Shown here: positions 2,166-51,800 of the stretch, piece after piece | Layout: each line of letters opens with the position of its first letter | Position numbering within the stretch: the first letter of the stretch is position 1 | Assembly: GCF_026151205.1 (NCBI RefSeq) | Contig: NC_087079.1 | Span: 2,134,028 to 2,198,027 of the forward strand | DNA from: Bolinopsis microptera | Lineage: Eukaryota > Ctenophora > Tentaculata > Lobata > Bolinopsidae | DNA length: 64,000 bases | Direction: 5' to 3' | Made by a program: the position numbers and the translations under genes | The notes under the pieces: model-generated | Told to the model about the DNA's origin: nothing | The model's database searches: none | Seen by the model: the letters and a program-made list of their open reading frames with translations, nothing else

Positions 2166-4117
2166 GTACAACAACGGTTCATACAACCCCAACACTCACT
2201 GTGAATACGTGATAGATCTCGACCCCGAGTGCGACATCGTCGTCTGTGCTCAATTCGACTTCAGTATGGCCGGAGATGACATGATCAGCATCAGCTCTGT
2301 TGAATCAAACGTACTGTTACTTTTACTGTTACTTTTACTGTTACTTTTACTGTTACTTTTACTGTTACTTTTACTGTTACCTTAACTGTTACATTTACTG
2401 TTACTTTTACTGTTACTTTTACTGTTACTTTTACTGTTACTTTTACTGTTACTTTTACTGTTACTTTTACTGTTACTTTTACTGTTACTTTTACTGTTAC
2501 TTTTACTGTTACTTTTACTGTTACTTTTACTGTTACTTTTACTGTTACTTTTACTGTTACTTTTACTGTTACTTTTACTGTTACTTTTACTGTTACTTTT
2601 ACTGTTACTTTTACTGTTACTTTTACTGTTACTTTTACTGTTACTTTTACTGTTACTTTTACTGTTACTTTTACTGTTACTTTTACTGTTACTTTTACTG
2701 TTACTTTTACTGTTACTTTTACTGTTACTTTTACTGTTACTTTTACTGTTACTTTTACTGTTACTTTTGCTGTTACTTTTGCTGTTACTTTTACTGTTAC
2801 TTTTGCTGTTACTTTTGCTGTTACTTTTACTGTTACTTTTACTGTTACTTTTACTGTTACTTTTACTGTTACTTTTACTGTTACTTTTACTGTTACTTTT
2901 ACTGTTACTTTTACTGTTACTTTTACTGTTACTTTTACTGTTACTTTTACTGTTACTTTTACTGTTACTTTTACTGTTACTTTTACTGTTACTTTTATTG
3001 TTACTTTTACTGTTACTTTTACTGTTACTTTTACTGTTACTTTTACTGTTACTTTTGCTGTTACTTTTACTGTTACTTTTACTGTTACTTTTACTGTTAC
3101 TTTTACTGTTACTTTTACTGTTACTTTTACTGTTACTTTTACTGTTACTTTTACTGTTACTTTTACTGTTACTTTTACTGTTACTTTAACTGTTACATTT
3201 ACTGTTATTTTTGCTGATATTTTTTGATGGCTAGCTTGGCGACACACCACACCTAGGTGGTATCGTTACAATATCTTGCATAAGTTATACCACATACGGC
3301 GGTAGAGGGTGGTACACTCGTGCCTCATATCAGTAGACTAAGTTTACAGACTTGAATCTGCACTATCACTTGGAGCTCTCTCACAAATTCACAACCATTT
3401 CAGATCAAATGGACGGGTGAGAAGCAACCCTTCAACTCCAAAGTGGAAGGTAACAAAGCTTCAGTACGATTCTCCTCGTCAGCTAATGATCCCCCAGAGG
3501 GAAGCAAGTGGTCTCTGGGAATTGTTTGTGTCCCTAAAACTGAGTATAAGTCAGTCTGCGAAGTTTGCGACGGTGAGTTATTAATTAAAACAAACTTCGT
3601 GGACGTGAAATTGAAATTGACGACTTGTAGTACAGTCTTTCTCTTGACTTCCTAATGCACTTTCTATTTAGCGGAAGCCATAAATCAACAAAATTTAAAC
3701 GCGGCTAAATTAAATTTGTTGTAGGAGATCATATACTCAAATAAATGAAGATTTGACGATGCCAAGCTTGCCATGACAGCGAAACTAGAAGACGTTTTAT
3801 AATTGTCAAGGTCTTGACTCATAAATCTTGCCATTTATGGCCTCAACTATGGACTGTGGAGCTCGTGGCATATATAGTGGGAGTCGGGATGATTTAGAAT
3901 TTGCGGTTGAAATCTCGCGGTATTTCCACTGTATACATTGAACGTATTGAGAATTTTTTAAACTGCCAATTTTTAATCACTGCACTGTAATCCGTAACCT
4001 TTTTGTTACAATTCATATCTAAATATTTACCTCATTTTCAATCAAAATATTTCAGAAATCGCAGATGCGCAGGTTGATGGACCGAATGGTGACAACATTC
4101 TGAAAGGTTTAGACTAG
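2166..4117 (+). CDS. CUB-domain protein, 3' part of a multi-exon gene
   Basis: Three exons were read by hand: 2166-2310, 3404-3572 and 4056-4117 (stop TAG at 4115). Acceptors are TTTCAACAG and ATTTCAG, donors are AAC|GTACTG and ACG|GTGAGT, and the phases join exactly (2, 0, 1). The joined protein carries one CUB domain. The first half has NPNTHCEYVID and a CDIVVCAQFDF strand; the second half has VRFSSSANDPPEGSKW. A short cysteine-containing tail follows, ending NILKGLD. CUB domains are extracellular beta-sandwich modules, so a secreted or cell-surface protein is inferred. The first exon starts in mid-codon, so the 5' part lies upstream and was not found. The intron between exons 1 and 2 is almost filled by a 12-bp minisatellite. 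A polyadenylation signal follows at 4268. Confidence 0.75.
2312..3217. repeat. 12-bp minisatellite, about 75 copies, in a CUB-gene intron
   Basis: Unit TACTGTTACTTT, nearly homogeneous, with scattered variants (TTTTGC around 2767-2820, TTTTAT near 2996, TTTAAC at both ends). The array starts directly after the GT of the splice donor at 2311. Because 12 is a multiple of 3, long frames stay open on both strands (Val-Lys-Val-Thr, Tyr-Cys-Tyr-Phe and poly-Leu); these are not genes. Confidence 0.95.
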
Positions 4118-4790: not shown

Positions 4791-5968
4791 TCATATCTCC
4801 TCGTTCAGTGTCCACATTACCGGCCCCAACATTCCTGGAAGTTTTATAATCTTAGCGTTTTATTTCTTAAAATTGTTCAAAATATTAGTAACTATACTTA
4901 TTTCTATAATAGTATAATGGTCGGGAGACGGCAAAATAAGGTCCGGAGGTCACGTGTTGGAGACACGTGTAAGATTTGAAGGTCACGTGTTGGAGGCACG
5001 TGTAAGATTTGACGATCACGTGTTGGAGACACGTGTAAGATTTGAAGGTCACGCGTTGGAGGCACGTGTAAGATTTGAAGGTCACGTTTTGGAGACACGT
5101 GTAAGATTTGAAGGTCACGTGTTGGAGACACGTGTAAGATTTGAAGGTCACGTGTTGGAAACACGTGTAAGATTTGAAGGTCACGTGTTGGAGGCACGTG
5201 TAAGATTTGACGATCACGTGTTGGAGACACGTGTAAGATTTGAAGGTCACGTGTTGGAGGCACGTGTAAGATTTGAAGGTCACGTGTTGGAGGCACGTGT
5301 AAGATTTGAAGGTCACGTGTTGGAGACACGTGTAAGATTTGGATAAAACTCACCTTCCTCCTCGTTGTTGAAATGCACTATCGTGTCCAGGTTATCTGTG
5401 TTATCAAAATCAAGCAACATATCTGAAAGTAAGACAACTATTAGAAAACTGTAGAATGACGAGAGTTTTTCCCTTTGTCCCTAATTCTACAACTAACGAG
5501 GATTTGTTCAAGTTTGCGCTACAACCACAATGAGCACAGTATATAGTACCACCAATTATATTTAATTTAAGTAGTACCACCAATATTTTTTAATTTCTCA
5601 AGAAAATAATTTTGACCATTGTCCCGCTTAAACGTTTTTTCCCTTTTACTCAGTGCCACAAATATTAAGAAAAATATCAAAATGCGGATGTTTGCAAATG
5701 TCTGTGTTTATTAACTCACGTTTTGAAATATCGTCTTCCTTTGTTCCAAGAGCATCCTTTACTGACTTCGCTGTGATTTGTAGACCCAGGAAACTGAGAT
5801 AGAAAGTGTAAGATTAGTAAGTATTAGGAAACGGAACTTGAAGTAACCTGGTAACTTAACTTGGAGTAACCAGATCTGGAGTTACCAGGTAACATTATCG
5901 TGATGTGCGGTATACTTATTAAAGATTACTTACTAGGTTGCTATAAGAACGATGAGGATGCGAACCAT
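4791..5968 (-). CDS. Predicted small secreted protein (about 73 aa), four exons
   Basis: Not a recognised family. Exons on the minus strand are 5991-5934 (ATG at 5968-5966), 5793-5720, 5422-5354 and 4834-4791 (stop TGA at 4793). All junctions have AG acceptors and GTAAGT or GTGAGT donors, and the phases fit throughout. The protein starts MVRILIVLIATYFLGLQ, a typical signal peptide, with cleavage likely near ITAKS. It continues with an acidic, hydrophilic region (KDALGTKEDDISK, LDFDNTDNLDTIVHF) and ends GPVMWTLNEEI. There is no cysteine and no clear dibasic processing site. The first exon follows an acceptor and its frame stays open above the ATG, so an upstream exon is possible. The last intron holds the 33-bp minisatellite, which starts 10 bp from the donor. 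Consistent exon phases make a real gene likely; the function is unknown. Confidence 0.55.
4948..5343. repeat. 33-bp minisatellite, 12 units, CACGTG-rich
   Basis: Twelve contiguous 33-bp units. A typical unit has two CACGTG palindromes, TCACGTGTTGG and GACACGTGTAAG; units 4 and 5 have lost the first one, leaving 22 in about 400 bp. Units 2-3 and 8-9 share the same variant pair (TTTGAC then GATCACG), which points to duplication of a block. Frames are open on both strands only because 33 is a multiple of 3. There are no variable spacers, so it is not a CRISPR. Confidence 0.95.
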
Positions 5969-12052: not shown

Positions 12053-12083
12053 ATTATACACAGGAGGAGCTAAGTGCAAAGAA

Positions 12084-12306
12084 ACTGTCACTAACTGCTA
12101 CAAACTGCCACTAACTGCCACAAACTGCCACTAACTGCCACAAACTGCCACTAACTGCCACAAACTGCCACTAACTGCTACAAACTGCCACTAACTGCCA
12201 CTAACTGCCACTAACTGCTACAATCGCGCCCACGCATTTGCGCGCGACAGTAGCAGTTAGTGGCAGTTAGTGGCAGTTAGTGGCAGTTAGTAGCAGTTAG
12301 TGGCAG
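12084..12306. repeat. Subterminal minisatellite, left arm
   Basis: Tandem ACTGCCACTAACTGCCACAA-type units run to about 12222. A GC-rich spacer (CGCGCCCACGCATTTGCGCG) follows, then the same unit in inverted orientation (GCAGTTAGTGGCAGTTAGTG). The arm therefore ends in its own hairpin. Confidence 0.9.
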
Positions 12307-12395
12307 TTTTTATGCGCGTCGGGATTTCAAATCGAGCGCTCATCAATTTTTATAATAGCAAGTCCGCAGCGTTTAGAGCTGCATTGTTGATTATT

Positions 12396-24522: not shown

Positions 24523-24914
24523 GAAAACTGCCACTAACTGCCACAAACTGCCACTAACTGCTACAAACTGCCACTAACTGCTACAAACTGCCACTAACTG
24601 CTGCAAACTGCGCGCGCAGTGCGTGGGCGCGATTGTAGCAGTTAGTGGCAGTTAGTGGCAGTTAGTGGCAGTTTGTAGCAGTTAGTGACAGTTTTCTGCA
24701 GTTAGTGGCAGTTTGTGGCAGTTAGTGGCAGTTTGTAACAGTTAGTGGCAGTTTGTAACAGTTAGTGGCAGTTTGTGGCAGTTAGTGGCAGTTTGTGGCA
24801 GTTAGTGGCAGTTTGTAACAGTTAGTGGCAGTTTGTAACAGTTAGTGGCAGTTTGTGGCAGTTAGTGGCAGTTTGTGGCAGTTAGTGGCAGTTTGTAGCA
24901 GTTAGTGACAGTTT
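24523..24914. repeat. Subterminal minisatellite, right arm
   Basis: ACTGCCACTAACTGCCACAA units, a GCGCGCAGTGCGTGGGCGCG spacer, then about 17 inverted GTTAGTGGCAGTTTGTGGCA units. It is longer than the left array (12084-12306) and has the same internal hairpin plan. Confidence 0.9.
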
Positions 24915-31030: not shown

Positions 31031-31572
31031 AAATTATAATAAAAAGCCATTGATCCCGGATTTTGACATTTTGCAGTCAAAATTATATTAATAGGTTTAG
31101 TTAAGTATATTTGAAACTTTCCTATCATGTCAGGTGGAAATACCAAAACGACCTTTACAAATATTTAGCTGAGCTTAATTAGTCGACGGGGCTTCTTTGG
31201 GATTTAACATATCTTGAAGTAGCCTATCACCATGTCTTGAAACACTGGTAAAGTAAAGTAAAAATTATGACATCACATCATCACACATGTCTACAAAGTA
31301 TCATTACATTGTCAACTGTATGGAAAAATATATCATACATATTTCTCCAGTCAAGCTTCATATACATTATGTTACCAGTTACATGCATTATCAACCAGCA
31401 AATGTCGAAATTCCCACAATGGAAGACCTCAAATTGATCAATTCTCGGAAGACAATTGACAGAATCAATTATACATACATATGACCTTATTAAGAGTACA
31501 TGATGTTATTCTCTACCTGAAGTTAATAATTAGTTACATTATTAGCTATTTTAAATAGAACAATATTAATAG
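31031..31572. other. No gene recognised
   Basis: AT-rich sequence; the 65-codon frame at 31287 has no supporting features. Confidence 0.4.
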
Positions 31573-31692
31573 CAGCGTGAGAAACTGGTGAACGAGCCTT
31601 TGGTAAAAACAGATTCGGAAAAGTCAATGCAGCACTCGGTCCTCGGTATTGTCGTCGGTATATTGTCCATTATCTGCCTTCTGCTTTCATAG
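31573..31692 (+). CDS. Possible last exon encoding a C-terminal hydrophobic segment
   Basis: After an ATTAATAG acceptor-like site, the frame reads QREKLVNEPLVKTDSEKS, then MQHSVLGIVVGILSIICL, and ends at TAG. A polar stretch followed by about 17 hydrophobic residues at the very end is what a tail anchor or GPI-attachment signal looks like. No partner exon was found and the acceptor has a poor pyrimidine tract, so this is only a candidate. Confidence 0.2.
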   Translation, partial: QREKLVNEPLVKTDSEKSMQHSVLGIVVGILSIICLLLS

Positions 31693-32204
31693 TTTCAACA
31701 ATAGTGAGTTCTAAATATACAGCTCCAAACCTTTGTATGAATGACTGAAAAACCTGAGAATCCGCATTCCTATAACTCAAAAGCATGAGTAACTCGTGAT
31801 AGTATGATGTATGATTCTTAAAAACTCTAAATTAAATTTGTTGCTCCTTCAAGAGCTTACCTTTTGTATTTATCAAAGCTTTTTTTGGTTATCTCACTTC
31901 GAGTACCTCAATCGTGTCTTGTGCAGTGAAATCATTAATTGTTAACTGAAGAAAAAAATAGTCAAAACACTAGACAATGAAATTTGTATAGGGTTGTCAT
32001 GTGATTGCCACCCTATTAGCTTTAGCTTATTACTAATTAGTTACACATCCGATATTCAGTATTAATTGAACTTCGCTGATTGGGTTGCATCACCTGATCT
32101 TAGCCAGATTAGAGTGGTCATCGTTGCAGACAAACCATGTAATAGTGTAAAACAAGGTTGGCACCAGAACAGTCCTCACGAGGCGTACCGATGGTAAACT
32201 CTGC

Positions 32205-32385
32205 CTGCTCACAAAGGTACGGTAACGAAGTGGTGTACACGGGTAATTAAACTGTACAAGGATACGATAGAGAAGTGTCGTACACGGTACTTAAGAAATA
32301 CACGGGTACGATATTGAAGTATCGTACACGGTACTTAAAGAAATATACGGGTACGATACCGAAGTCTCGTACACGAATACCTGTA
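32205..32385. repeat. Tandem hairpin repeat, about 45-bp unit, 4 copies
   Basis: Each unit has an inverted pair such as GGTACGAT...ATCGTACAC around a GAAGT loop, and the units are joined by CGGTACTTAAGAAATACACG. In some units stem changes appear on both sides, for example GATATTGAAGTATC. Confidence 0.8.
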
Positions 32386-33572
32386 AATCTCTAGCTCTGC
32401 AACTTTAACTCTTACAGGCTACTGAGGGCCGTATAACTTTAAAAGATCGAATGACTTGATCGAGTCCTAAGTTAGGTAGGGTAAGGAAACAGGGTATTCG
32501 AACAATAAGTCTCGAAGGGCAATATATTACTATTTGATCAATAATATAATACTAGTGACGCATCGGCCACGTTACAGCGTTTTCGGCGGTGGTAATTTGA
32601 TAAACTTCACCCAGCAAGCCACTCGAAAAACTGGTTGTAATGGGGCAGATTAGAAATTAACCGCACTGCGTTGCACGGCAACACGTGCCCCCGTCTATCA
32701 AAATATATAACCTAACTAACTACCACGAGTCCTCCAAAATCATCCCTAATCTATAACACTAATATCTAATCTAATCTAACACTAATCCTAACGGATTTTT
32801 ATTCACTTAACTGCAATATCCTAACTAAAATATGACTACGTTAAAACTGCTGCAACCAGCCTACATATTACACTAGTAAACTGGTAGTCAAAAATCAAAA
32901 CCCTGATTTACCGTTAAATTTCTCCTTGTCCCAAACTGTATGGTAAATCGGGTGAAAAAAGGAACAAGAAGCTACTTAAGAAAAACGTTATCATTATGAT
33001 AACGTTTCTGCCAATTCATTTTTGGGTACAGTAAGAATTAATGATCTTATCATTCAATGCTCAGGAAGATTTTACTATGTTAAGATTTCAATACGGAAGT
33101 TAAAAGATCCTAAAATGCTGAACATGAAGTGAAGAATTCTGCACTGCAATGAATAGCAGTTCTCTCGAAACCAGTGTGTATGTAATCAAACTAATCTTAT
33201 TAACTTCATCTTAAACAAGAGGAGATAGTTTAGTTGAGATTTATTTTGTTACAATTTATTATAGATAAACTGTAATATTGGGAAAATGCAACTGCTTAAT
33301 CCCCCTTTAGGCCGAGTGGCTCCTTGCTAAATGGAATATCTCCTCCCACCAAACTTGATATGAGATATTCTTCATCCTCTAGCAGTGGGACTTCCACATG
33401 TGAGCTTGTTTTATTTTTAATCAGAAATAGTTAAAATTTGTTTGTATGTAAGCTGAGCAGATAACTACATTGACAAATAAGTCTAATGTAGTGGAATATT
33501 TGATATTTTCCTAGCTAGTAGTCGGAATGTCTGGAGCCAAATTTTGTGACAATTTTGATTCACTATAATATA
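32386..33572. other. No gene recognised
   Basis: Contains a degenerate CTAAC-rich tract at 32710-32800 and AACGTTATCATTATGATAACGTT (a palindrome) at about 32983-33005. No exon could be supported. Confidence 0.4.
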
Positions 33573-34016
33573 TAAGTATCTAAGTATCTAACTATCTAAC
33601 TATCTAACTATCTAACTATCTAACTATCTAACTATCTAACTATCTAACTATCTAACTATCTAACTATCTAACTATCTAACTATCTAACTATCTAACTATC
33701 TAACTATCTAACTATCTAACTATCTAACTATCTAACTATCTAACTATCTAACTATCTAACTATCTAACTATCTAACTATCTAACTATCTAACTATCTAAC
33801 TATCTAACTATCTAACTATCTAACTATCTAACTATCTAACTATCTAACTATCTAACTATCTAACTATCTAACTATCTAACTATCTAACTATCTAACTATC
33901 TAACTATCTAACTATCTAACTATCTAACTATCTAACTATCTAACTATCTAACTATCTAACTATCTAACTATCTAACTATCTAAGATCTGACTATCTAACT
34001 ATCTAAGTATCTAACT
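33573..34016. repeat. 8-bp satellite (CTAACTAT)n, about 55 copies
   Basis: Almost pure CTAACTAT repeats with AAGATCTGACT interruptions at the right end. It ends about 50 bp before the probable acceptor of the first recognised lipid-kinase exon. Confidence 0.95.
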
Positions 34017-34066
34017 ATCTAACTATCTAACTATCTAAGATCTGACTGTCTAAACCAAACCCGCAG

Positions 34067-36211
34067 TTGACCACGAGACAGCCACTACAGCCTCAACACC
34101 GGCTACTCTGAACTCAGATTATGCAATACCAGTAGTTCCTGGACCGAGCAGTTTAGTGACCATATCAGGCATTTCTACCACTCAAACCACCCAGGTTAAC
34201 TTAACTAACTTACCAACTAACTAACTAACTAACCAGGTTAACTTAACTAACTAACTAACTAACTAAGTAAACTCTTATTTAACTGAATTTCGGGAGTCTG
34301 GTAGATATTTACCCCCCGGGGGTATATAATAATTTAGACCTTATGTCAATATATCAATACTATTGCCCAACTATTACCATTGCCCAACTATTACCATTGC
34401 CCAACTATTACCATTGCCCAACTATGCAACTATTAATAATATATAGTTGGGCATCGGTATTTCACTTTTTCTGTGCATAATCAAAGAATTTAAGGCCCAT
34501 TTTGAACTTGATTTCCAATTAAAGAATTAATCAGACATACGTTTTCGGACCATCGCCGATAGTTACTGTTGACGAAGATGAACTTCAGAAAGAATGTACC
34601 GGAATCATGCTGAGAAACGGGAAAAAGTACACCAAGTTTTTCTATTTTTTGTTCAAATTATAGTTGTTTATGTCAACAAATGTTCAGTTGATGTTCATAA
34701 CTACTTAGCATAAATTTATTAGATAGCTAGAAGTATTCATTGATAAGATAATGATACTATCTTCATATCTAGTTGGTACATATAATTTGTGATGTTACAA
34801 CCTTGTGTCAGGTACAAAGTTTCACTCTCACTGTTCTCACTAACCTGGGAGAGGGAGAGGAAAGCGAAGCGAATAGGAAAAAGTTCGTCAGAACCATTTT
34901 TTTCAATTTGCAATATAATCTTCTTTTATACATTAATTATATCTATTTTCAATTAATGTTTTTCAACTGTAAATGTTCCAAATTTGACGATAAAATCTTT
35001 TAAAGATGTATCAAAATTAGAGGACCCTAATTTATTAAAACAATGCAAGATGTACCGATTACAAGTTAACCCTGACTTATTTAGAAGGACAGAAGAAGTA
35101 CGAGTTAAAGTTAGAAGACGTGTTGGGAGCCTGCTCTCATCTCAACTTTAACTTCAGACACCTATTCAGAAAGGGTCGTGATCTCTTCAAACTTAGAGTT
35201 TACACTTACAAAAAAGTTGGTGATTTAATTCGGTATATATCTCAACATTTAATTCATCATATAAACAACATTGGTATTTGTAATTTTGTTAGGGAACTAT
35301 AGTCTGTACAGCTGTAGTCTGTACAGTGTACACTCTTGAAAAGACGCTATGATTTTGGTCTTAACAATGATTTCGCTCGATTTTGGTCTTAACAATGATT
35401 TCGCTCTGAGAATCAGGGTCAGTAGCTCAATTGGTAGAGCAAGAGACGCGAAATCTCGAGGTTCTGGGATCATTCCCCAGTTGTCCCTAGTTTTTCAGAG
35501 TTAATCATCACATATAGACAGCATGAGAGTAGGCCTGGCCATCTCGAAGTGATAAAAATACAACAGAATATAATACACATATTACACATTTTAAAAACTA
35601 AGAACGCCATAATTTGATGTTAATTACCTATCTAATATCCAATATATCATCTATTATTTGGAAATTCGGATCAATTCATTAATCAGACAACGTTACAGAT
35701 GGAAGATGGAAAATGGAAAAATAGTTATTTCCAGTTCTTTTGTCATTCTTTGGTGGAAGTGCAAGAGTGGGCCAAAAGTATCAACATGAGAATAAACTGT
35801 TAGTGATTTTGTGAAATACTAATTAAGTTGAATGATCATGTTAACATTGGTTAAGCAACCAGTCTGAATTGGCTTTAAATACTGAACTAATTCATTCTGA
35901 AGTAAGCACTTTGAAGTGGTTACTTTTAGATTTGTAGTTTTATTTTAGAGATGTTTGTACATTGAGCCCTGATTTAACATTTTCATCTCACTTCCTTTTG
36001 ATCTAGGTACTTTACATAATAATACCTATTCTGTTATCTAATGTATGGTTCTACCCCTTATATTCACTACCCCTTATTTCAGTGCTACAAAGACCACGCA
36101 GAGTCCACGTGTTCGTTAACCCTTTCAGTGGGGAGGGGTTAGCTTGCAAAGTTTACAACACTAAAATAGCTCACATATTCCAAATAGCTGGGATTACTAC
36201 AACTGTTACAG
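34067..36211 (+). CDS. CERK: Ceramide-kinase-like lipid kinase, 5' exons only
   Basis: Six exons were read by hand: about 34067-34194, 34535-34635, 34812-34882, 35085-35215, 35699-35798 and 36083-36211. The phases fit at every junction. After a Thr/Ser-rich N terminus comes a PH-like region (YKVSLSLFSLTWERE, KYELKLEDVLGACSH, FKLRVYTYKK, GKWKNSYFQFFC, VQEWAKSINM). The start of the diacylglycerol-kinase-type catalytic domain follows: RPRRVHVFVNPFSGEG and VYNTKIAHIFQIAGIT. The NPFxGxG motif and the W...F.C stretch before it resemble ceramide kinase more than sphingosine kinase; a CERKL-type paralogue is possible. Ceramide kinase phosphorylates ceramide with ATP at membranes. The GGDG loop and all later exons are absent from the window: the last exon ends at a donor that runs into a 4.7-kb tandem array. 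The first exon's start is uncertain. Confidence 0.75.
34195..34265. repeat. Donor-adjacent CTAA repeats with duplicated junction
   Basis: CCAGGTTAACTTAACTAACT, which includes the exon's CAG and the GT donor, occurs at 34191 and again at about 34233, each followed by CTAACTAACTAA. Confidence 0.8.
34359..34428. repeat. 17-bp tandem repeat, 4 copies
   Basis: Unit CCCAACTATTACCATTG, within an intron of the lipid-kinase gene. Confidence 0.85.
35416..35487 (+). tRNA. tRNA-like sequence, probably a pseudogene
   Basis: It folds as acceptor GGGTCAG with TTGTCCC (one mismatch), D arm GCTC/GAGC, anticodon stem GAGA/TCTC and T stem CTGGG/CCCAG. The anticodon loop CGCGAAA lacks the invariant T33, and the T loop ATCATTC lacks the TTC start. 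It is most likely a tRNA pseudogene or SINE head inside an intron of the lipid-kinase gene. Confidence 0.45.
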
Positions 36212-39200
36212 GTAACTACTACTGTTACAGGTAACTACTACTGTTACAGGTAACTACTACTGTTACAGGTAACTACTACTGTTACAGGTAACTACTACTG
36301 TTACAGGTAACTACTACTGTTACAGGTAACTACTACTGTTACAGGTAACTACTACTGTTACAGGTAACTACTACTGTTACAGGCAACTACTACTGTTACA
36401 GGCAACTACTACTGTTACAGGTAACTAGTACTGTTACAGGTAACTACTACTGTTACAGGTAACTACTACTGTTACAGGTAACTACTACTGTTACAGGTAA
36501 CTACTACTGTTACAGGTAACTACTACTGTTACAGGTAACTAGTACTGTTACAGGTAACTACTACTGTTACAGGTAACTACTACTGTTACAGGCAACTACT
36601 ACTGTTACAGGTAACTACTACTGTTACAGGTAACTACTCCTGACTACTGTTACAGGTAACTACTACTGTTACAGGTAACTACTACTGTTACAGGTAACTA
36701 CTACTGTTACAGGTAACTACTACTGTTACAGGTAACTAGTACTGTTACAGGTAACTACTACTGTTACAGGTAACTACTACTGTTACAGGTAACTACTACT
36801 GTTACAGGTAACTACTACTGTTACAGGCAACTACTACTGTTACAGGTAACTACTACTGTTACAGGTAACTACTACTGTTACAGGTAACTACTACTGTTAC
36901 AGGTAACTACTACTGTTACAGGTAACTACTACTGTTACAGGAAACTACTACTGTTACAGGTAACTACTACTGTTACAGGTAACTACTACTGTTACAGGCA
37001 ACTACTACTGTTACAGGTAACTACTACTGTTACAGGTAACTACTACTGTTACAGGTAACTACTACTGTTACAGGTAACTACTACTGTTACAGGTAACTAC
37101 TACTGTTACAGGCAACTACTACTGTTACAGGTAACTACTACTGTTACAGGCAACTACTACTGTTACAGGTAACTACTACTGTTACAGGCAACTACTACTG
37201 TTACAGGCAACTACTACTGTTACAGGCAACTACTACTGTTACAGGCAACTACTACTGTTACAGGCAACTACTACTGTTACAGGCAACTACTACTGTTACA
37301 GGCAACTACTACTGTTACAGGTAACTACTACTGTTACAGGTAACTACTACTGTTACAGGTAACTACTACTGTTACAGGTAACTACTACTGTTACAGGTAA
37401 CTACTACTGTTACAGGTAACTACTACTGTTACAGGTAACTACTACTGTTACAGGCAACTACTACTGTTACAGGTAACTACTACTGTTACAGGTAACTACT
37501 ACTGTTACAGGCAACTACTACTGTTACAGGTAACTACTACTGTTACAGGTAACTACTACTGTTACAGGTAACTACTACTGTTACAGGCAACTAGCTACTG
37601 TTACAGGTAACTACTACTGTTACAGGTAACTACTACTGTTACAGGTAACTACTACTGTTACAGGTAACTACTACTGTTACAGGTAACTACTACTGTTACA
37701 GGTAACTACTACTGTTACAGGTAACTACTACTGTTACAGGTAACTACTACTGTTACAGGTAACTACTACTGTTACAGGTAACTACTACTGTTACAGGTAA
37801 CTACTACTGTTACAGGTAACTACTACTGTTACAGGTAACTACTACTGTTACAGGGAACTACTACTGTTACAGGTAACTACTACTGTTACAGGTAACTACT
37901 ACTGTTACAGGTAACTACTACTGTTACAGGTAACTACTACTGTTACAGGCAACTACTACTGTTACAGGTAACTACTACTGTTACAGGTAACTACTACTGT
38001 TACAGGTAACTACTACTGTTACAGGCAACTACTACTGTTACAGGCAACTACTACTGTTACAGGCAACTACTACTGTTACAGGCAACTAGTACTGTTACAG
38101 GTAACTACTACTGTTACAGGCAACTAGTACTGTTACAGGTAACTACTACTGTTACAGGTAACTACTACTGTTACAGGTAACTACTACTGTTACAGGTAAC
38201 TACTACTGTTACAGGTAACTACTACTGTTACAGGTAACTACTACTGTTACAGGTAACTACTACTGTTACAGGTAACTACTACTGTTACAGGTAACTACTA
38301 CTGTTACAGGTAACTACTACTGTTACAGGTAACTACTACTGTTACAGGCAACTACTACTGTTACAGGCAACTAGTACTGTTACAGGTAACTAGTACTGTT
38401 ACAGGTAACTACTACTGTTACAGGTAACTACTACTGTTACAGGTAACTACTACTGTTACAGGTAACTAGTACTGTTACAGGCAACTACTACTGTTACAGG
38501 CAACTAGCTACTGTTACAGGTAACTAGTACTGTTACAGGTAACTACTACTGTTACAGGTAACTACTACTGTTACAGGTAACTACTACTGTTACAGGTAAC
38601 TACTACTGTTACAGGCAACTACTACTGTTACAGGCAACTACTACTGTTACAGGTAACTACTACTGTTACAGGTAACTACTACTGTTACAGGTAACTACTA
38701 CTGTTACAGGTAACTACTACTGTTACAGGTAACTACTACTGTTACAGGTAACTACTACTGTTACAGGTAACTACTACTGTTACAGGTAACTACTACTGTT
38801 ACAGGTAACTACTACTGTTACAGGTAAACTACTACTGTTACAGGTAACTACTACTGTTACAGGTAACTACTACTGTTACAGGTAACTACTACTGTTACAG
38901 GTAACTACTACTGTTACAGGTAACTACTACTGTTACAGGTAACTACTACTGTTACAGGTAACTACTACTGTTACAGGTAACTACTACTGTTACAGGTAAC
39001 TACTACTGTTACAGGTAACTACTACTGTTACAGGTAACTACTACTGTTACAGGTAACTACTACTGTTACAGGTAACTACTACTGTTACAGGTAACTACTA
39101 CTGTTACAGGTAACTACTACTGTTACAGGTAACTACTACTGTTACAGGTAACTACTACTGTTACAGGTAACTACTACTGTTACAGGTAACTACTACTGTT

Positions 39201-40930
39201 ACAGGTAACTACTACTGTTACAGGCAACTACTACTGTTACAGGTAACTACTACTGTTACAGGTAACTACTACTGTTACAGGTAACTACTACTGTTACAGG
39301 TAACTACTACTGTTACAGGTAACTACTACTGTTACAGGTAACTACTACTGTTACAGGTAACTACTACTGTTACAGGTAACTACTACTGTTACAGGTAACT
39401 ACTACTGTTACAGGTAACTACTACTGTTACAGGTAACTACTACTGTTACAGGTAACTACTACTGTTACAGGTAACTACTACTGTTACAGGTAACTACTAC
39501 TGTTACAGGTAACTACTACTGTTACAGGTAACTACTACTGTTACAGGTAACTACCACTGTTACAGGTAACTACTACTGTTACAGGTAACTACTACTGTTA
39601 CAGGTAACTACTACTGTTACAGGTAACTAATAATGTTACAGGTAACTACTACTGTTACAGGTAACTACTACTGTTACAGGCAACTAGTACTGTTACAGGT
39701 AACTACTACTGTTACAGGCAACTACTACTGTTACAGGTAACTAGTACTGTTACAGGTAACTACTACTGTTACAGGTAACTACTACTGTTACAGGCAACTA
39801 CTACTGTTACAGGTAACTACTACTGTTACAGGTAACTACTACTGTTACAGGTAACTACTACTGTTACAGGTAACTACTACTGTTACAGGTAACTACTACT
39901 GTTACAGGTAACTACTACTGTTACAGGCAACTACTACTGTTACAGGCAACTACTACTGTTACAGGTAACTAGTACTGTTACAGGCAACTAGTACTGTTAC
40001 AGGTAACTACTACTGTTACAGGCAACTACTACTGTTACAGGTAACTAGTACTGTTACAGGTAACTACTACTGTTACAGGTAACTACTACTGTTACAGGTA
40101 ACTACTACTGTTAGGTACTACTACTTTACAGGTAACTATCCTGTTACAGTAACTACTACTGTTACAGGTAACTACTACTGTTACAGGTAACTACTACTGT
40201 TACAGGTAACTACTACTGTTACAGGTAACTACTACTGTTACAGGTAACTACTACTGTTACAGGTAACTACTACTGTTACAGGTAACTACTACTGTTACAG
40301 GTAACTACTACTGTTACAGGTAACTACTACTGTTACAGGTAACTACTACTGTTACAGGTAACTACTACTGTTACAGGTAACTACTACTGTTACAGGTAAC
40401 TACTACTGTTACAGGTAACTACTACTGTTACAGGTAACTACTACTGTTACAGGTAACTACTACTGTTACAGGTAACTACTACTGTTACAGGTAACTACTA
40501 CTGTTACAGGTAACTACTACTGTTACAGGTAACTACTACTGTTACAGGTAACTACTACTGTTACAGGTAACTACTACTGTTACAGGTAACTACTACTGTT
40601 ACAGGTAACTACTACTGTTACAGGTAACTACTACTGTTACAGGTAACTACTACTGTTACAGGTAACTACTACTGTTACAGGTAACTACTACTGTTACAGG
40701 TAACTACTACTGTTACAGGTAACTACTACTGTTACAGGTAACTACTACTGTTACAGGTAACTACTACTGTTACAGGTAACTACTACTGTTACAGGTAACT
40801 ACTACTGTTACAGGTAACTACTACTGTTACAGGTAACTACTACTGTTACAGGTAACTACTACTGTTACAAGGTAACTACTACTGTTACAGGTAACTACTA
40901 CTGTTACAGGTAACTATACGGTAACTACTA
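36197..40930. repeat. 19-bp array, about 250 copies, built from a splice-donor junction
   Basis: Unit CTACTACTGTTACAGGTAA. The first copy is the end of the lipid-kinase exon itself (CTACAACTGTTACAG, then GTAACT), so each unit carries CAG|GTAACT, a close match to the animal 5' splice consensus. Common variants are GGCAAC (destroys the GT) and ACTAGTAC, which occur in clusters and indicate block duplications. Indels become frequent only near 40100-40140 and at the right end (40880-40970). Period 19 keeps no long frame open. Confidence 0.95.
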
Positions 40931-41974
40931 CTAGTTACAAGGCAACTACTACTGTTACAGTGCAAGACTACTGTAATATGCCCAGATTGCTTCTTTGTAT
41001 ACTTGCGGTTACTAGCCACTAAAACTGGCTGTGGTAAGCTGCTTTACCACAAAAACACATTATTATGCAATCCTACAGAACTTAACAAGTTGTTAAAGGA
41101 AATCATCACTGGCTTTACACACCAATCTCCTGCTTCCCATTTGGCTAGTTGTCATGGTTACAGTGTTCCATTGGCTAGCTTTTTGAGCTTGGTGTTACTT
41201 CTGATTGTGTGTTTCAGGTAGAGAGTACTGGAAGTTGTGGGTACTTTGTGTAGTCTGCATGGGCTACATGACACACATTCTTTATCCTTTAATCTTTCTC
41301 AAACAGTACATAATATACAGGATTCAGTATTATAAACAACCACAGATATAATAAAAGGAGAAAGAAGCAATAAGTATACCCCATGTATCCAGTACCCAGT
41401 ATAACCAAAAAACACATTATGTTAGGGTTCCACCAAACACGGTGCAGTAATTAAATTACCACACCGCATAACATGGGGGGCTGTAGCAAATAATGTAAGA
41501 ATAAAAGAAAACAATTCTCGCATCCTAACTACTGATAACTACGGGGGTCCCTAATGAGTTGAAGAAGTACAACAGAAAAAGGTACAGATATTATAAGTTT
41601 GTGTTTTTGCCAGCTTAATTAAGGGCAAACTATTATGTTTTTTTTAAAGTTAGTTTATGATTTAGTTCTTCGTATAGTATTTTAAGTGGAGTATCATGTT
41701 TTTTATTTCCTGTTTAGCGTTCGACTGATTTCCTTTCCATTAGATTTCTTTCTTATGCACATCAGTGTGAATTTTATTGTGAAGACGTAAGTTTCCAAGT
41801 ATAGTAAATTTATTCCTGCAACTATCCATCACTACTGGCAGACCGGCTTCACTGCGACAGAATCTCTCTTTAAAAAGTTATTTATCAAACTATCGTAATT
41901 ATTTGATATTAATAACTTTAGCAGTATTATTGTCCCTTGTATTTACAATACGCAATCGACATAGCAGTTGCTGT
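40931..41974. other. No gene recognised between two arrays
   Basis: The missing catalytic exons of the lipid kinase would be expected here or further right. No GGDG-like exon or other conserved kinase motif was seen. A 72-codon frame at 41003 has no recognisable features. Confidence 0.45.
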
Positions 41975-43793
41975 TTTTAGTTAGTTAGATACTAAATACT
42001 AACCGGGCTCGCTACAAGGTGGTTGCATAGTTAAGATACTAAAACTAAACGGGATCGCTACAATGTGGTCTGCTTAGTTAAGATACTAAAACTAACCGGG
42101 CTCGCTACAATGGTGGTCTGCTTAGTTTAAGATACTAAAACTGACCGGGCTCGCAATAAAAGTGGTATCTGCTTAGTTATGATACTAAAACTAAACGGCT
42201 CGCTACAAAGTGGTTCTGACTGCTTAGTTAAGATAACTAAAACAACCGGGATCGCTACAAAAGTGGTCCTGCCTTAGTTAAGATACTAAACTAACCGGGG
42301 CTCGCTACAAGTGGTCTGCTTAGTTAAGATACAAACTGACCGGGCTCGCTACAAAGTGGTTGCCTTAGTTAAGATACTATAAACTACCGGGCTTCGCTAC
42401 AAAGTGGTCTGGATTAGTAAGATACTCTAAAAACTAACGGGATAGCACCCGCTACATAAAGTGGTTCTGCTTAGTTAAGTATACTAAAAACTAAAACGGG
42501 CTCGCTACAAAGTGGTTCTGCTTAGTAAGATTACTAAAACTAACCGGGCTCTCGCTACAAAGTGATCTGCCTTAGTTAAGATTCTAAAAATAAAACGGGC
42601 TCGTACAAGTGGTCTGCTTATTTAAGTACTAAAACTAACCGGGCTCGCTACAAAGTGGTCTGCTTAGTTAAGATACTAAAACTAAACGGGGCTCGCTACA
42701 AAGTGGTACTGCTTGTTAGTTAAGATACTAAAACTAACCGGGCTCGCTACAAAGTGGTCTGCTTAGTTAAGATACTAAAACTAACCGGGCTCGCTACAAA
42801 GTGATCTGCTTGTTAGTTAAGATACTAAAACTAACCGGGCTCGCTACAAAGTGGTCTGCTTGTTAGTTAAGATACTAAAACTAACCGGGCTCGCTACAAA
42901 GTGGTCTGCTTAGTTAAGATACTAAAACTAACCGGGCTCGCTACAAAGTGTCTGCTTAGTTAAGATACTAAAACTAACGGGCTCGCTACAAAGTGGTTCT
43001 TGACTAAGTTAAGATTCTAGAGACTAAACCGGGCTCGCTTCAAAGTGTTTCTGCTTAGTTAAGATACTTTAACTTAACCGGGCTCGCTTACCATAGTGGT
43101 CTGCTTGTTAGTCTAAGATACTTAAACTAAACCGGCTCTAACAAAGTGGTCCTGCTTAGTTAAGTTACTAAAACTAAAACGGGCTCGCTACAAAGTGGTC
43201 TGCTTAGTTAAGATACTAAACTAAACGGGCTTCGCTACAAAGAGTCTGCTTACGTTAAGATCTAAAAACTTACGGGCTCGCTACTAAAGTGGTTCTGCTT
43301 AGTTAGATACTAAAACTTAACCGGGCTCGCTACAAAGTGGTATTGCTTAGTTAAGATTCTAAAAACTAACACGGGCTCGCTACAAAGTGGTATGCTTGTT
43401 AGTTAAGATACTAATAAACTAACCGGGCTCGATACAAGTGGTTATGCTTAGTTAAGTTACTAAAATAACCGGGCTCGCTTCAAAGAGGTCTGTTGTTAGT
43501 TAAGATACTAAAACTAATCGGGCTCGCTACAATGTGGTTCTGATTGTTAGTTAAGATACAAAAAACTACACCGGGCTCGCTACAAGTGGCTGCTTGTTAG
43601 TTAAGGATACTAAAACTAACCAGGCTCGCTGCAAAGTGGTCTGCTTAGTTTAGATACTAAAACTAACGGCTCGCTACAAAGTGCGTCTCTGCTTAGTTCA
43701 AGTTACTAAACTAACCGGGCTCGCTTCAAAGTGGTTCTATGATTGTTAGGGTAAGTTAATAAAAACTAACCGGGCTCGCTACAAGTGGTATGC
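41975..43793. repeat. Indel-rich satellite, unit about 47-52 bp, about 37 copies
   Basis: The core contains TTAGTTAAGATACTAAAACT and CGGGCTCGCTACAAAGTGGT. Copies near 42640-42970 are regular, but most others carry one to several single-base insertions or losses per unit, far more than in the neighbouring arrays. A TTGTTAG insertion variant recurs. There are no spacers, so it is not a CRISPR. Confidence 0.9.
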
Positions 43794-43932
43794 TGAATAA
43801 GCGAAATGCCCGTCTTTGCTGCATGGTCACCTTGTTATCTCCACTTTGTTCATATCCCTCTTTCGCAGCACTGATTCCCTAGACCGGTGCTAGGTTCCTA
43901 GTCGTATGGGATTATGTCAGTGCGTGTGTATA

Positions 43933-48758: not shown

Positions 48759-48886
48759 CTAGATACCAAGATTGGCTTGCAGTTCCATTATTTCGAGTTC
48801 ATCCAGAATAGCACGTGTCATGTCACGAGTCTTGGCTTTCCCACCGAGGTCTATTGTACGACAGCTTCGCTTGTTTAAAACATTCT
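48759..48886 (-). CDS. IDH3B: IDH3B alternative last exon b
   Basis: Acceptor ATTTCAG, then the frame [36 protein letters not shown] and a stop at 48759. It is clearly homologous to exon 49370-49479, accepts the same phase, and is six residues longer. Confidence 0.8.
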
Positions 48887-51800
48887 CTGAAATATTACGT
48901 CATAATTATATCATAATTACATCACGGCCATATCTTTTTATTCATATGTGTTATTATTATCTAATTCCATTCACTGGTAATAAATGAAACAATTGAAATG
49001 ATACAATTATTTATAAATAATAATATAGTCATGTGATGAGTGATCCGTGGAAGATTAGTCTACGTAATGCGGTCTATACCCTCTATAATACAAATTTTCA
49101 ATCTTGACCGAAACAGAATTCCTAAAGTTTTAAATGTATATGTGATTGATATGTACGTCATGCTAAATACTATGAGTTTCATTGGTGCACCATGACGACA
49201 GCTACAGGACGAGATGAGAATGGATGATCTCGGGATAGCATTGTGACAAGCCGGTGCCGTGCAAGCCACAGGGTTATAAGGTGCTCCTGGCTTTCTGATA
49301 ATGATGCTGGGAGATGTGTGTATGCTTCATACTTTGAAGATCTGTTCATGGTTACCTATAATCTTATGACTAAGCATACAGGGTGTCCAGTTCGTTCAAG
49401 ATAGCTCGTGTCATCTCTGGAGTGGTAGCATTCCCGCCAAGATCTCGTGTTTTACAGCTCTGCTTGTTCAACACTAACTCTGTCAGATTGGGGTGCGTGT
49501 GATAGTGCCAGGACAGTAAAACGGTCCGTTTACAGAGTTGGGTTTAACCATTATTATATAATATAATATATTTGTAATGATGCGGGCAATCACAGATCAC
49601 AGATCACAGATCACAGATCACAGATCACATATCACAGATCACAGATCACATATCACAGATCACAGATCACAGATCAATGATCTTTCTGAAAAGTCCTATA
49701 CCCCTACGATTTTACTTACTGACTGCTTGGATCAACTTGTCTCCAGCATCGTGGAGAGTTAGATGTTTCAGCATGAAAGCGGAACTGAGGACCATTGCTA
49801 CAGGGTTTGCAACGTACATTCCTTTCATTTCCATCCATGTGTGACGAGCACCAGGTTCAAATACCTGGACGTAAGAATTGAGTTGGCCAGTTTCTTTGAT
49901 CAAGCTTTAAAATATATCAATTTAAAATTAGACAAGTTCATCAACCGGAACCTTTATCGGTTTAAATTTTGAAGGGTCAAAGTAAAGAATAACTTTTCCC
50001 TATCATATTGCTGAGGAAGGTACTTTGAATTAAAATGAGATCTGATATAATACCCTAATCATACTTACAGCTATTTCACTGCCGTAACTCTTGCTGGGAA
50101 CTACTCCTGCTCCGCCAACTAAACCAGCAGCCAGGTTGGATACCAGGTTACCATACAGGTTAGGCATCACCTGAGACATGTATGTACACTAAACAGCGGA
50201 ATCATAATACATATTACATGACTCATATTGTTATTATATATCCACCAGCGTGCGCTTTTTCGCATAGCGGGCTCTCACCAGCCCGCTGTCAAAGGGCCCG
50301 ATATCTCTACAGCCCGCTCATGATATAGCCCGCTAACAAGTGACATTTAATTTGACCAGTAGCAATATAGCCCGGAGTTCTCTAAAATATTTTCAGTTTC
50401 TGTATCGTCTCCATGTAAAATTCCTTATTACACTGACTATATACATTTTATTTTGGTGTCCGGTAGGGCTGTTCATGCAGCTCGTGAGCAGATGACATGA
50501 TACTTTGATTTATATCAAAGTTATTATAACACACTACATAATACACATCAGCACTATAATCCCCCTATATTATTGATATTCATCGTCACTGACATTACAT
50601 TCATTATTCCCACGGCCCAGGAATGCAGTGCATCTCCAGCCCCTATATACGACACAGCCCTTTATGATTGACTTACATTGAACACGTGACGTGTTACCAT
50701 GGTTACAACAATTAGTGGCGACCTTTTCGAGAGATGACTTTTATACAAGCTCCATTGTTTATTTATAAAATTATATATTAACTGTAATACGCCCGCTGGT
50801 GGATATAATCCACATCACCTCGACCCGCGGGCGGAAAAATCGTATAGCACTCGGGCCCGATGGGCCCTCCGTGCTATACGAAAATATGTCCTCCTCGGGC
50901 TAGCGCCCTCGGGGACATATGAAATATTGCACGCGCGTGCGCGTGCAATATTTTGTTCCGCCCGCGAGTCTCCGGTGATATGTATATATATGAGACAAGA
51001 GGAACGCCATCTTAGGTCACGATCGCGACTCGCGAGGAGGATTAATACTTTTCCTAACGTAGGTCACTGAGGCAGTTTGAATTGTTTTAACTACATAATA
51101 TTTAAATGCTAAGATAACTTTTTGAAACCGAGTTTGTACTTACCATGACGTCAAATTGCTGTGGGTTTATGACGAGTTGCTGGCAAGTGTTGTCTACAAT
51201 CTGTTCATCGTAGTCGATTGTAGGGTACAGTTCGGACACCTGGTGATAATATGGTATTACTCACATAATATGGTATTACTCATATCATTTCAAACAAAAT
51301 GTACATTTGCATTCCACATTCATAGAAAAATGTATTTAGTAAATTTCGATCGGTTCTTACATCAAAATTTAAACCAAAGGACATTTATAGCACTGTAATA
51401 TAACTGGCTTGCTCAGCTCCAGATGGTAGAATTCCACATTAAAATACAAATTTCTAACTTTCTAAAGTGCAATGTTTCAAAACAAACCTCTTGGCAACAC
51501 GACTTAAAAAGACCATCACTCAGCTTCATAATGTTAGCCTTGTGAATGCAAGTCACTTTTTTTCTATTGTGCTCAAGGGCGTAGTCGAATGCGAACTTAG
51601 CGATCCTCATGGACTTTTCACGAGTGATAACCTTGAAGGACTCAACGACTCCTGGCACAGACTCGTGCTCCAAACAGCTGTACTCCCCTTCTGTGTTCTC
51701 ACGGATTGCAATCAGATCTATCCCTGCAAATGGTAAAGTTTTACATATCATTGCAATGATCTTTTTTATATTTATGCCATTTTCTCAGTGGCGAAAACCG

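Follow-up and report, generated by a model that had tools for sequence, protein, structure and literature searches.

Organization of the Kinase Locus and Its Donor Array

The DNA examined here is a 64,000-nucleotide stretch of the ctenophore Bolinopsis microptera (contig C8:2134028-2198027, hereafter the window), which holds part of a lipid-kinase gene, labelled ceramide/sphingosine-kinase-like, in which one exon is followed directly by some 250 tandem copies of its own 5' splice site. A second copy of the region (copy B) lies 64 kb further on along the same contig and carries the whole gene, whereas the window holds a partial copy only. Genome searches covered 264.65 Mb. The principal features are given below, with splice junctions marked by a slash and with coordinates prefixed by D running along contig C8 from 2228001 onward.

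31490..43877 (approximate), plus strand: block common to the window and copy B (C8 ~2229156-2242147 in copy B), from BLASTN
36083..36211, plus strand: exon 1 in the numbering of this analysis, encoding the NPFSGEG segment for nucleotide binding and in phase 1 at either end, from reading frame and Pfam
36212..40960, plus strand: donor-junction array, 250 x 19 bp (CAG/GTAACT), 209 units with intact GT, from Tandem Repeats Finder (TRF) and unit parsing
D5955-6083, D20365-20428, D21510-21652, D21758-21832 and D21980-22069: exons 1-5 of copy B, with GT/AG ends and in one frame

TRF reported the window array at 36196-40960, with a period of 19 bp, a copy number of 250.8 and 97% matches, and a wraparound parse from the first intron base, 36212, which is also the first donor, gave 250 units. 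The unit GTAACTACTACTGTTACAG was found exactly in 191 of these; a GCAACT variant, with GC for GT, accounts for 31 and a CTAGTAC variant for 9. An intact GT is kept in 209 units and lost in 41, the latter spread over 26 runs. The preliminary description of the locus had noted about 250 tandem copies of the junction between exon and donor as well as GC variants that destroy the GT, and these counts bear it out on both points, although the end that it gave for the array, 40930, has to be moved to 40960. Relaxed selection was considered as the cause of donor decay in the window and rejected because a single base change together with array turnover would be enough.

The exon upstream of the array terminates in ...GATTACTACAACTGTTACAG, and the 19-bp unit is therefore made up of the last exon bases and the exon's donor, as had been proposed. 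The unit starts with GT and finishes with AG, its consensus combining a donor with a 3'-splice-site-like end, ...TGTTACAG. The final 16 exon bases read ATTACTACAACTGTTACAG in the window and ATTACAACTACTGTTACAG in copy B, each one base off the unit. Since these differences fall at different places and are both synonymous, the exon end of the common ancestor would most simply have matched the unit throughout. A 4.7-kb array of 19-bp units at 97% matches did not originate by chance.

The Complete Gene in Copy B

In the window, exon 1 alone matched positions 1-35 of DAGK_cat with E = 0.0064 and 16.5 bits, which is under the Pfam cut-off, and a six-frame motif search found no catalytic exons downstream in the window; these are present in copy B instead. 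A 401-bp query spanning the junction had one other full-length match in the genome, 64 kb downstream on C8, and a genome search with PF00781 gave a match at C8:2249505-2249687, downstream of copy B. The exon 1 protein is identical in copy B, where exons 1-5 encode 166 amino acids that match DAGK_cat with E = 1.7e-25 and 89.4 bits (cut-off 23.6), CIGGDG being present, and the frame stays open in a sixth exon to ...GSPQDICKH. The lipid-kinase identity given in the preliminary description was thereby upheld. Across the junction, residues 1-89 of the copy B protein show a gap-free alignment with sphingosine kinase 1 (3vzb; E = 5.7e-15), which fixes the donor at the first unit and supports an exon boundary at the equivalent of 36212, in keeping with the earlier view that the true donor precedes the array.

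Five PDB sequences were matched by the copy B protein, four of sphingosine kinase 1 and one of acylglycerol kinase, and we take the later exons of the gene to resemble ceramide kinase. The first label tried was ceramide kinase and the second sphingosine kinase; both were dropped for the label used here. Shortly 5' of the kinase exon, at 35415-35489 on the plus strand, lies a sequence resembling tRNA-Ser (anticodon CGA; 43.3 bits for Rfam tRNA), which may be a gene or a short interspersed nuclear element.

The array of copy B is cleaner than that of the window, with 259.9 copies at 99% matches by TRF, 234 of 260 units exact and the GT kept in 258 of 260. Outside the array, similarity between the two copies is uneven. 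The 5' flank at 34060-35530 is identical at 1470 of 1471 bases, with 2 gap events; parts of the 5' side of the shared block reach an identity of about 97% only, and insertions several hundred bases long distinguish the window copy from copy B. To the 3' side of the array (40985-41970), 66 gap events were counted in 986 bases, which leaves the 3' end and the exact unit count of the window copy uncertain. The window copy stops inside an exon encoding a sushi domain. It arose by a recent duplication of part of the locus or else is a haplotype that was misplaced, and copy B is the more reliable of the two copies.

The window sequence at 40950-43877 is gap-rich against an otherwise similar copy B, in the manner of unpolished long-read sequence, and the sequence to the right of the array is probably unpolished; copy numbers obtained within this part are unreliable. 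Two open reading frames (ORFs) on the minus strand, at L009 1545-2066 and 4988-5491, presumably resemble fragments of retroelements of the long interspersed nuclear element type; the second lies mostly within an insertion of copy B that is absent from the window copy.

These comparisons bear on whether the array, at least in the window, could be an artefact of assembly, with the other haplotype of the copy B locus misplaced by 64 kb and ending in raw-read sequence. A nearly identical 5' flank next to a gap-rich right edge would be expected in that case. However, the copies differ by the long insertions and by array variants (although two haplotypes could likewise differ), and the copy B array is clean and belongs to a gene with further exons, so that the phenomenon is independent of the window copy. 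We consider an artefact highly improbable.

An Acceptor Array and Splice-site Choice in the Same Intron

The copy B intron between exons 1 and 2 is 14,281 nt long, and directly 5' of exon 2 it contains a 44-bp repeat. The unit of this repeat, TGTAATTTCAG/TGACTGACAGGCAGGAGATATGTTAACACTAAG, copies in shortened form the acceptor together with the opening bases of exon 2 (TTTCAG/TGACTGAACGGGCTGGACACGCAGGAGATAT). TRF found 73.4 copies across 3233 bases with one interruption, and TTTCAGTGACTGA occurs 68 times in the last stretch of the intron, the true junction counted. One intron thus begins with copies of its own donor and finishes with copies of its own acceptor.

To follow the consequences of using each site, exon 1 with k array units added was joined to exon 2 and the later exons for every one of the 258 copy B donors with an intact GT, in steps of 19 bp. 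Only 1 of the 258 donors, the first and exon-proximal one (k = 0), gave a frame open through exon 5, and among 69 ATTTCAG acceptors only the last, which is again exon-proximal, did so. The preliminary description had argued that each extra unit would shift the frame, 19 not being a multiple of 3; all of the further 257 donors tested give a stop, and skips by multiples of three units also end in a stop codon. It had left the choice of splice site as an open question, which may now be answered from the reading frame, in that only the exon-proximal donor and acceptor keep the frame open. Taken as a whole, its interpretation stood with regard to the junction copy, the lipid kinase, the frame shift and the GC variants, but missed the continuation of the gene, the acceptor array and the acceptor-like end of the unit. 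The frame pattern would fit exon definition, whereas scanning for the first AG would choose a wrong acceptor.

The extra sites might instead be used, either with multiple donors spliced, in the manner of human IFI6, or with the units as ratchet points at which mis-chosen donors are cleaned up by splicing within the array. The unit GTAACTACTACTGTTACAG has the form GT...AG, with the donor GTAACT and the acceptor-like end TGTTACAG, and the IFI6 repeat units act as donors in the passages cited (PMC4526556). However, all 257 of the additional donors that were examined run into a stop, making the kinase impossible. In addition, 19 nt is below the minimum intron size, so that only skips of several units could be excised. 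Use of the extra sites is accordingly rated as unlikely.

The array might also be kept as a platform for the U1 small nuclear ribonucleoprotein (snRNP), its dense donors serving in telescripting, by which the long intron would be shielded from premature cleavage and polyadenylation, as a U1 sink or in chromatin retention of the transcript. The intron of 14.3 kb contains 256 CAGGTAAC sites and 6 AATAAA motifs; telescripting is described, in the cited passages, for human, mouse and Drosophila (PMC5499120); and donors are kept in 258 of 260 units in copy B against 209 of 250 in the partial copy. On the other hand, the acceptor array would not be bound by U1 and needs a separate reason, and the donor loss in the window copy is nearly all one base change, spreadable by array turnover. 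A U1 platform seems improbable as the explanation of the arrays. Functional roles of the extra donors, including the decoy and nucleation activities raised in the preliminary description, are possible but hypothetical.

Other Junction Arrays in and around the Window

A third junction of the kinase gene is also repeated: the exon-6 donor, ACACGG/GTAAGAAACAACC..., is present in 11 copies separated by poly-C. Within the large intron of copy B, on the opposite strand, lies the sushi exon (Pfam Sushi, E = 1.6e-7), which ends in ...CAAGCAGACCACTTTGTAGCGAGCCCG/GTTAGT and has a 47-bp array whose unit includes 27 exon bases and the donor. In copy B this array comprises 44 copies with 96% matches. The window has about 37 degenerate copies, and the sushi remnant there, at 43756..43878, gave no Pfam match. 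Further features of the window are as follows.

41981..43794, minus strand: 47-bp x ~37 array, degenerate, of the sushi donor junction ...TGTAGCGAGCCCG/GTTAGTTTTAG (TRF, BLASTN, unit comparison)
43756..43878, minus strand: ORF with sushi exon remnant, truncated where the duplicated block ends (ORF list)
33569..34053, plus strand: TATCTAAC x 61 array, ~14 bases 5' of a candidate acceptor, CCCGCAG/TTGACC (TRF; putative exon)
2166..2310, plus strand: CUB-like exon whose donor, AAC/GTACTG, opens straight into a 12-bp array (ORF, Pfam)
2312..3224, plus strand: TACTGTTACTTT x 76 array (12-bp unit), from intron base 2 after the CUB-like exon (TRF)
4947..5341, minus strand: 33-bp x 12 array, 12 intron bases past the donor GGAAG/GTGAGT (TRF; exon by ORF only)

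The CUB-like exon and the next exon together matched PF00431 with E = 3.5e-4, 0.1 bit short of the Pfam cut-off. Just beyond the window, at contig position 2133353, a 46-bp repeat present four times repeats an acceptor junction (exon by ORF only), and at two donors other than that of the CUB-like exon arrays set in after 5 and 12 intron bases. Among 16 random 10-kb stretches of the genome, one clear donor-junction array was found, at L027 5817-5989 (17 bp x 10); it adjoins an ORF of 52 amino acids without a Pfam match, the exon being assigned by ORF only.

Additional repeats and genes were noted along the window. A candidate donor, CAG/GTTAACTTAACTAAC, is present twice at 34190-34270, with a TAAC array coming after it. 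Arrays of AACTGCCACT / AGTGGCAGTT, in opposite orientation, are found at 12082-12308 and 24525-24914, and one of the random stretches has a similar array (L033 2620-2741); they resemble pieces of a dispersed mobile element. On the minus strand at 48759-49543, an isocitrate dehydrogenase gene has a tandem pair of similar exons that are candidates for its last exon, maybe as alternative ends; the Iso_dh Pfam match falls on another exon only.

Genome-wide Tests and the Origin of the Arrays

To compare words across the genome, matches were defined as three copies of a word spaced 4-34 bases apart. The donor word AGGTAAGT gave 958 matches, against 0 for the reversed word, 213 for AGTGAAGT, 479 for TGAAGTGA, 270 for GATGAGTA and 63 for ATGAGTAG, an excess in raw matches of about 2- to 15-fold over the four controls that matched at all. 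Counted as distinct arrays on contigs C1 and C2, the donor word was found in at least 9, compared with 3 for AGTGAAGT and 2 for GATGAGTA. In 266 kb of non-array DNA it occurred 8 times and the controls 4-18 times, and it is hence not commoner there. The reversed word, with its 0 matches, was set aside as a decisive control because other words form arrays too, and the claim was lowered to a moderate excess; genome-wide support for donor-junction arrays is moderate.

The best explanation, to which we give a probability of roughly 60%, is that tandem duplication spanning splice junctions produced the arrays and that exon definition allows them to be tolerated. A short stretch of DNA spanning the exon/donor junction would have been duplicated in tandem, seeding a minisatellite that unequal exchange then expanded inside the intron, and the same duplication process would have acted on the acceptor of the intron and on other nearby junctions. 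U1 could bind any of the ~260 donors, with only the exon-proximal donor and acceptor giving protein. Under exon definition, the short exons (129 and 64 nt) would each be recognized as a unit across themselves, so that splicing would settle on the innermost site and remove the outer copies, which would be mostly silent, as intron.

Several results weigh against this explanation. A test of array units with a donor position weight matrix (PWM), built on human donor frequencies, showed no clear enrichment of donor-like units: among 27 random arrays, 2 had p<=0.05, where 1.4 would be expected, and 10 had p<=0.25 (6.8 expected); for 23 arrays of the region, which include both 19-bp arrays, the corresponding figures were 2 (1.2 expected) and 12 (5.8 expected). 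A test for an ORF plus donor at array edges was not significant either in the region (5/25, p=0.64) or in random stretches (12/36, p=0.07). The acceptor word TTTCAG showed no clear excess genome-wide, with 5878 matches against 7558 for TTCTAG and 1366 and 982 for two reversed words. In two cases the array keeps a distance of 38 and 43 bases to the junction. Several of the junction associations came to light through inspection of the sequence next to arrays, which is an ascertainment bias, so that they yield no rate, and neutral duplication alone does not account for junctions being favoured over mid-intron positions.

The acceptor word was dropped as genome-wide evidence because TTCTAG matches more and because TTTCAG is commoner in plain DNA, by a factor of 2.4 over TTCTAG. 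In the first 3.69 Mb of C1, distinct arrays numbered 12 for the acceptor word against 6.

The nonsignificant PWM and edge tests, together with the arrays formed by unrelated words, are what would be expected if the genome were simply rich in minisatellites, some of which touch exons by coincidence. Such a coincidence is difficult to reconcile with units that hold the terminal bases of the exon itself (27 in the sushi array), with a single gene having arrays at either end of one intron and at a third junction besides, or with the genome-wide excess of the donor word, and it is regarded as very unlikely.

Discussion

The human IFI6 (6-16, G1P3) minisatellite, reportedly the subject of Turri et al. 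1995, consists of units that supply multiple donors in mRNA according to the cited passages of PMC4526556. As there, the tandem units in Bolinopsis each carry a splice donor at the 3' end of an exon, the GT being kept in 209 of 250 and 258 of 260 units. Unlike IFI6, in which downstream units are used in mRNA, only the first of the 258 donors is predicted to be able to give the kinase; the units also number about 250-260, and the intron has an arrayed acceptor as well.

Intron gain by AGGT duplication is said to go back to Rogers 1989 and Hellsten 2011, with a multiple duplication of 24 bp in fission yeast attributed to Zhu & Niu 2013 and a further case in the potato RNA-dependent RNA polymerase gene. 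Tandem duplication of AGGT is presented as an established model of intron gain, with multiple copies in two fission-yeast genes, in the passages cited from PMC4974935. The CAG/GT of the 19-bp unit resembles this model, whereas the 47-bp sushi unit, with CCCG/GT, differs from it. The model also concerns new introns formed from exonic sequence in few copies, whereas in Bolinopsis a junction that already exists is present, inside an intron, in tens to hundreds of copies.

In recursive splicing, ratchet points have an acceptor-like end directly followed by a donor. The adjoining acceptor-like end and donor of the unit, TGTTACAG/GTAACT, are similar, but here about 250 of them stand in tandem at an exon end with a spacing of 19 nt, and as ratchet points they would be hypothetical. 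The ctenophore Hormiphora californensis is likewise rich in tandem repeats, with TRF repeats making up 13% of its genome and many nested intronic genes, and the cited passages report no link of these repeats to splice junctions (PMC8527503). In the accessible passages of the open-licence literature, no report of repeat arrays at both ends of one intron was found.

More broadly, a lineage-wide process might turn donor and acceptor junctions into minisatellites, with introns growing from their ends and with a spliceosome that would depend on strict exon definition to pass over hundreds of perfect decoys; this extension is put forward tentatively, as a possibility that is itself rather doubtful. 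Most work on splice-site choice deals with two or three sites in competition. With 258 near-identical donors and about 69 acceptors in one animal gene, and only one pair compatible with protein, the locus provides a natural test of that choice, in which long reads could directly reveal proximity rules, exon definition and U1 occupancy. If junctions are indeed preferred seeds of minisatellites, introns would lengthen from their ends, and repeat expansion would be linked to splicing.

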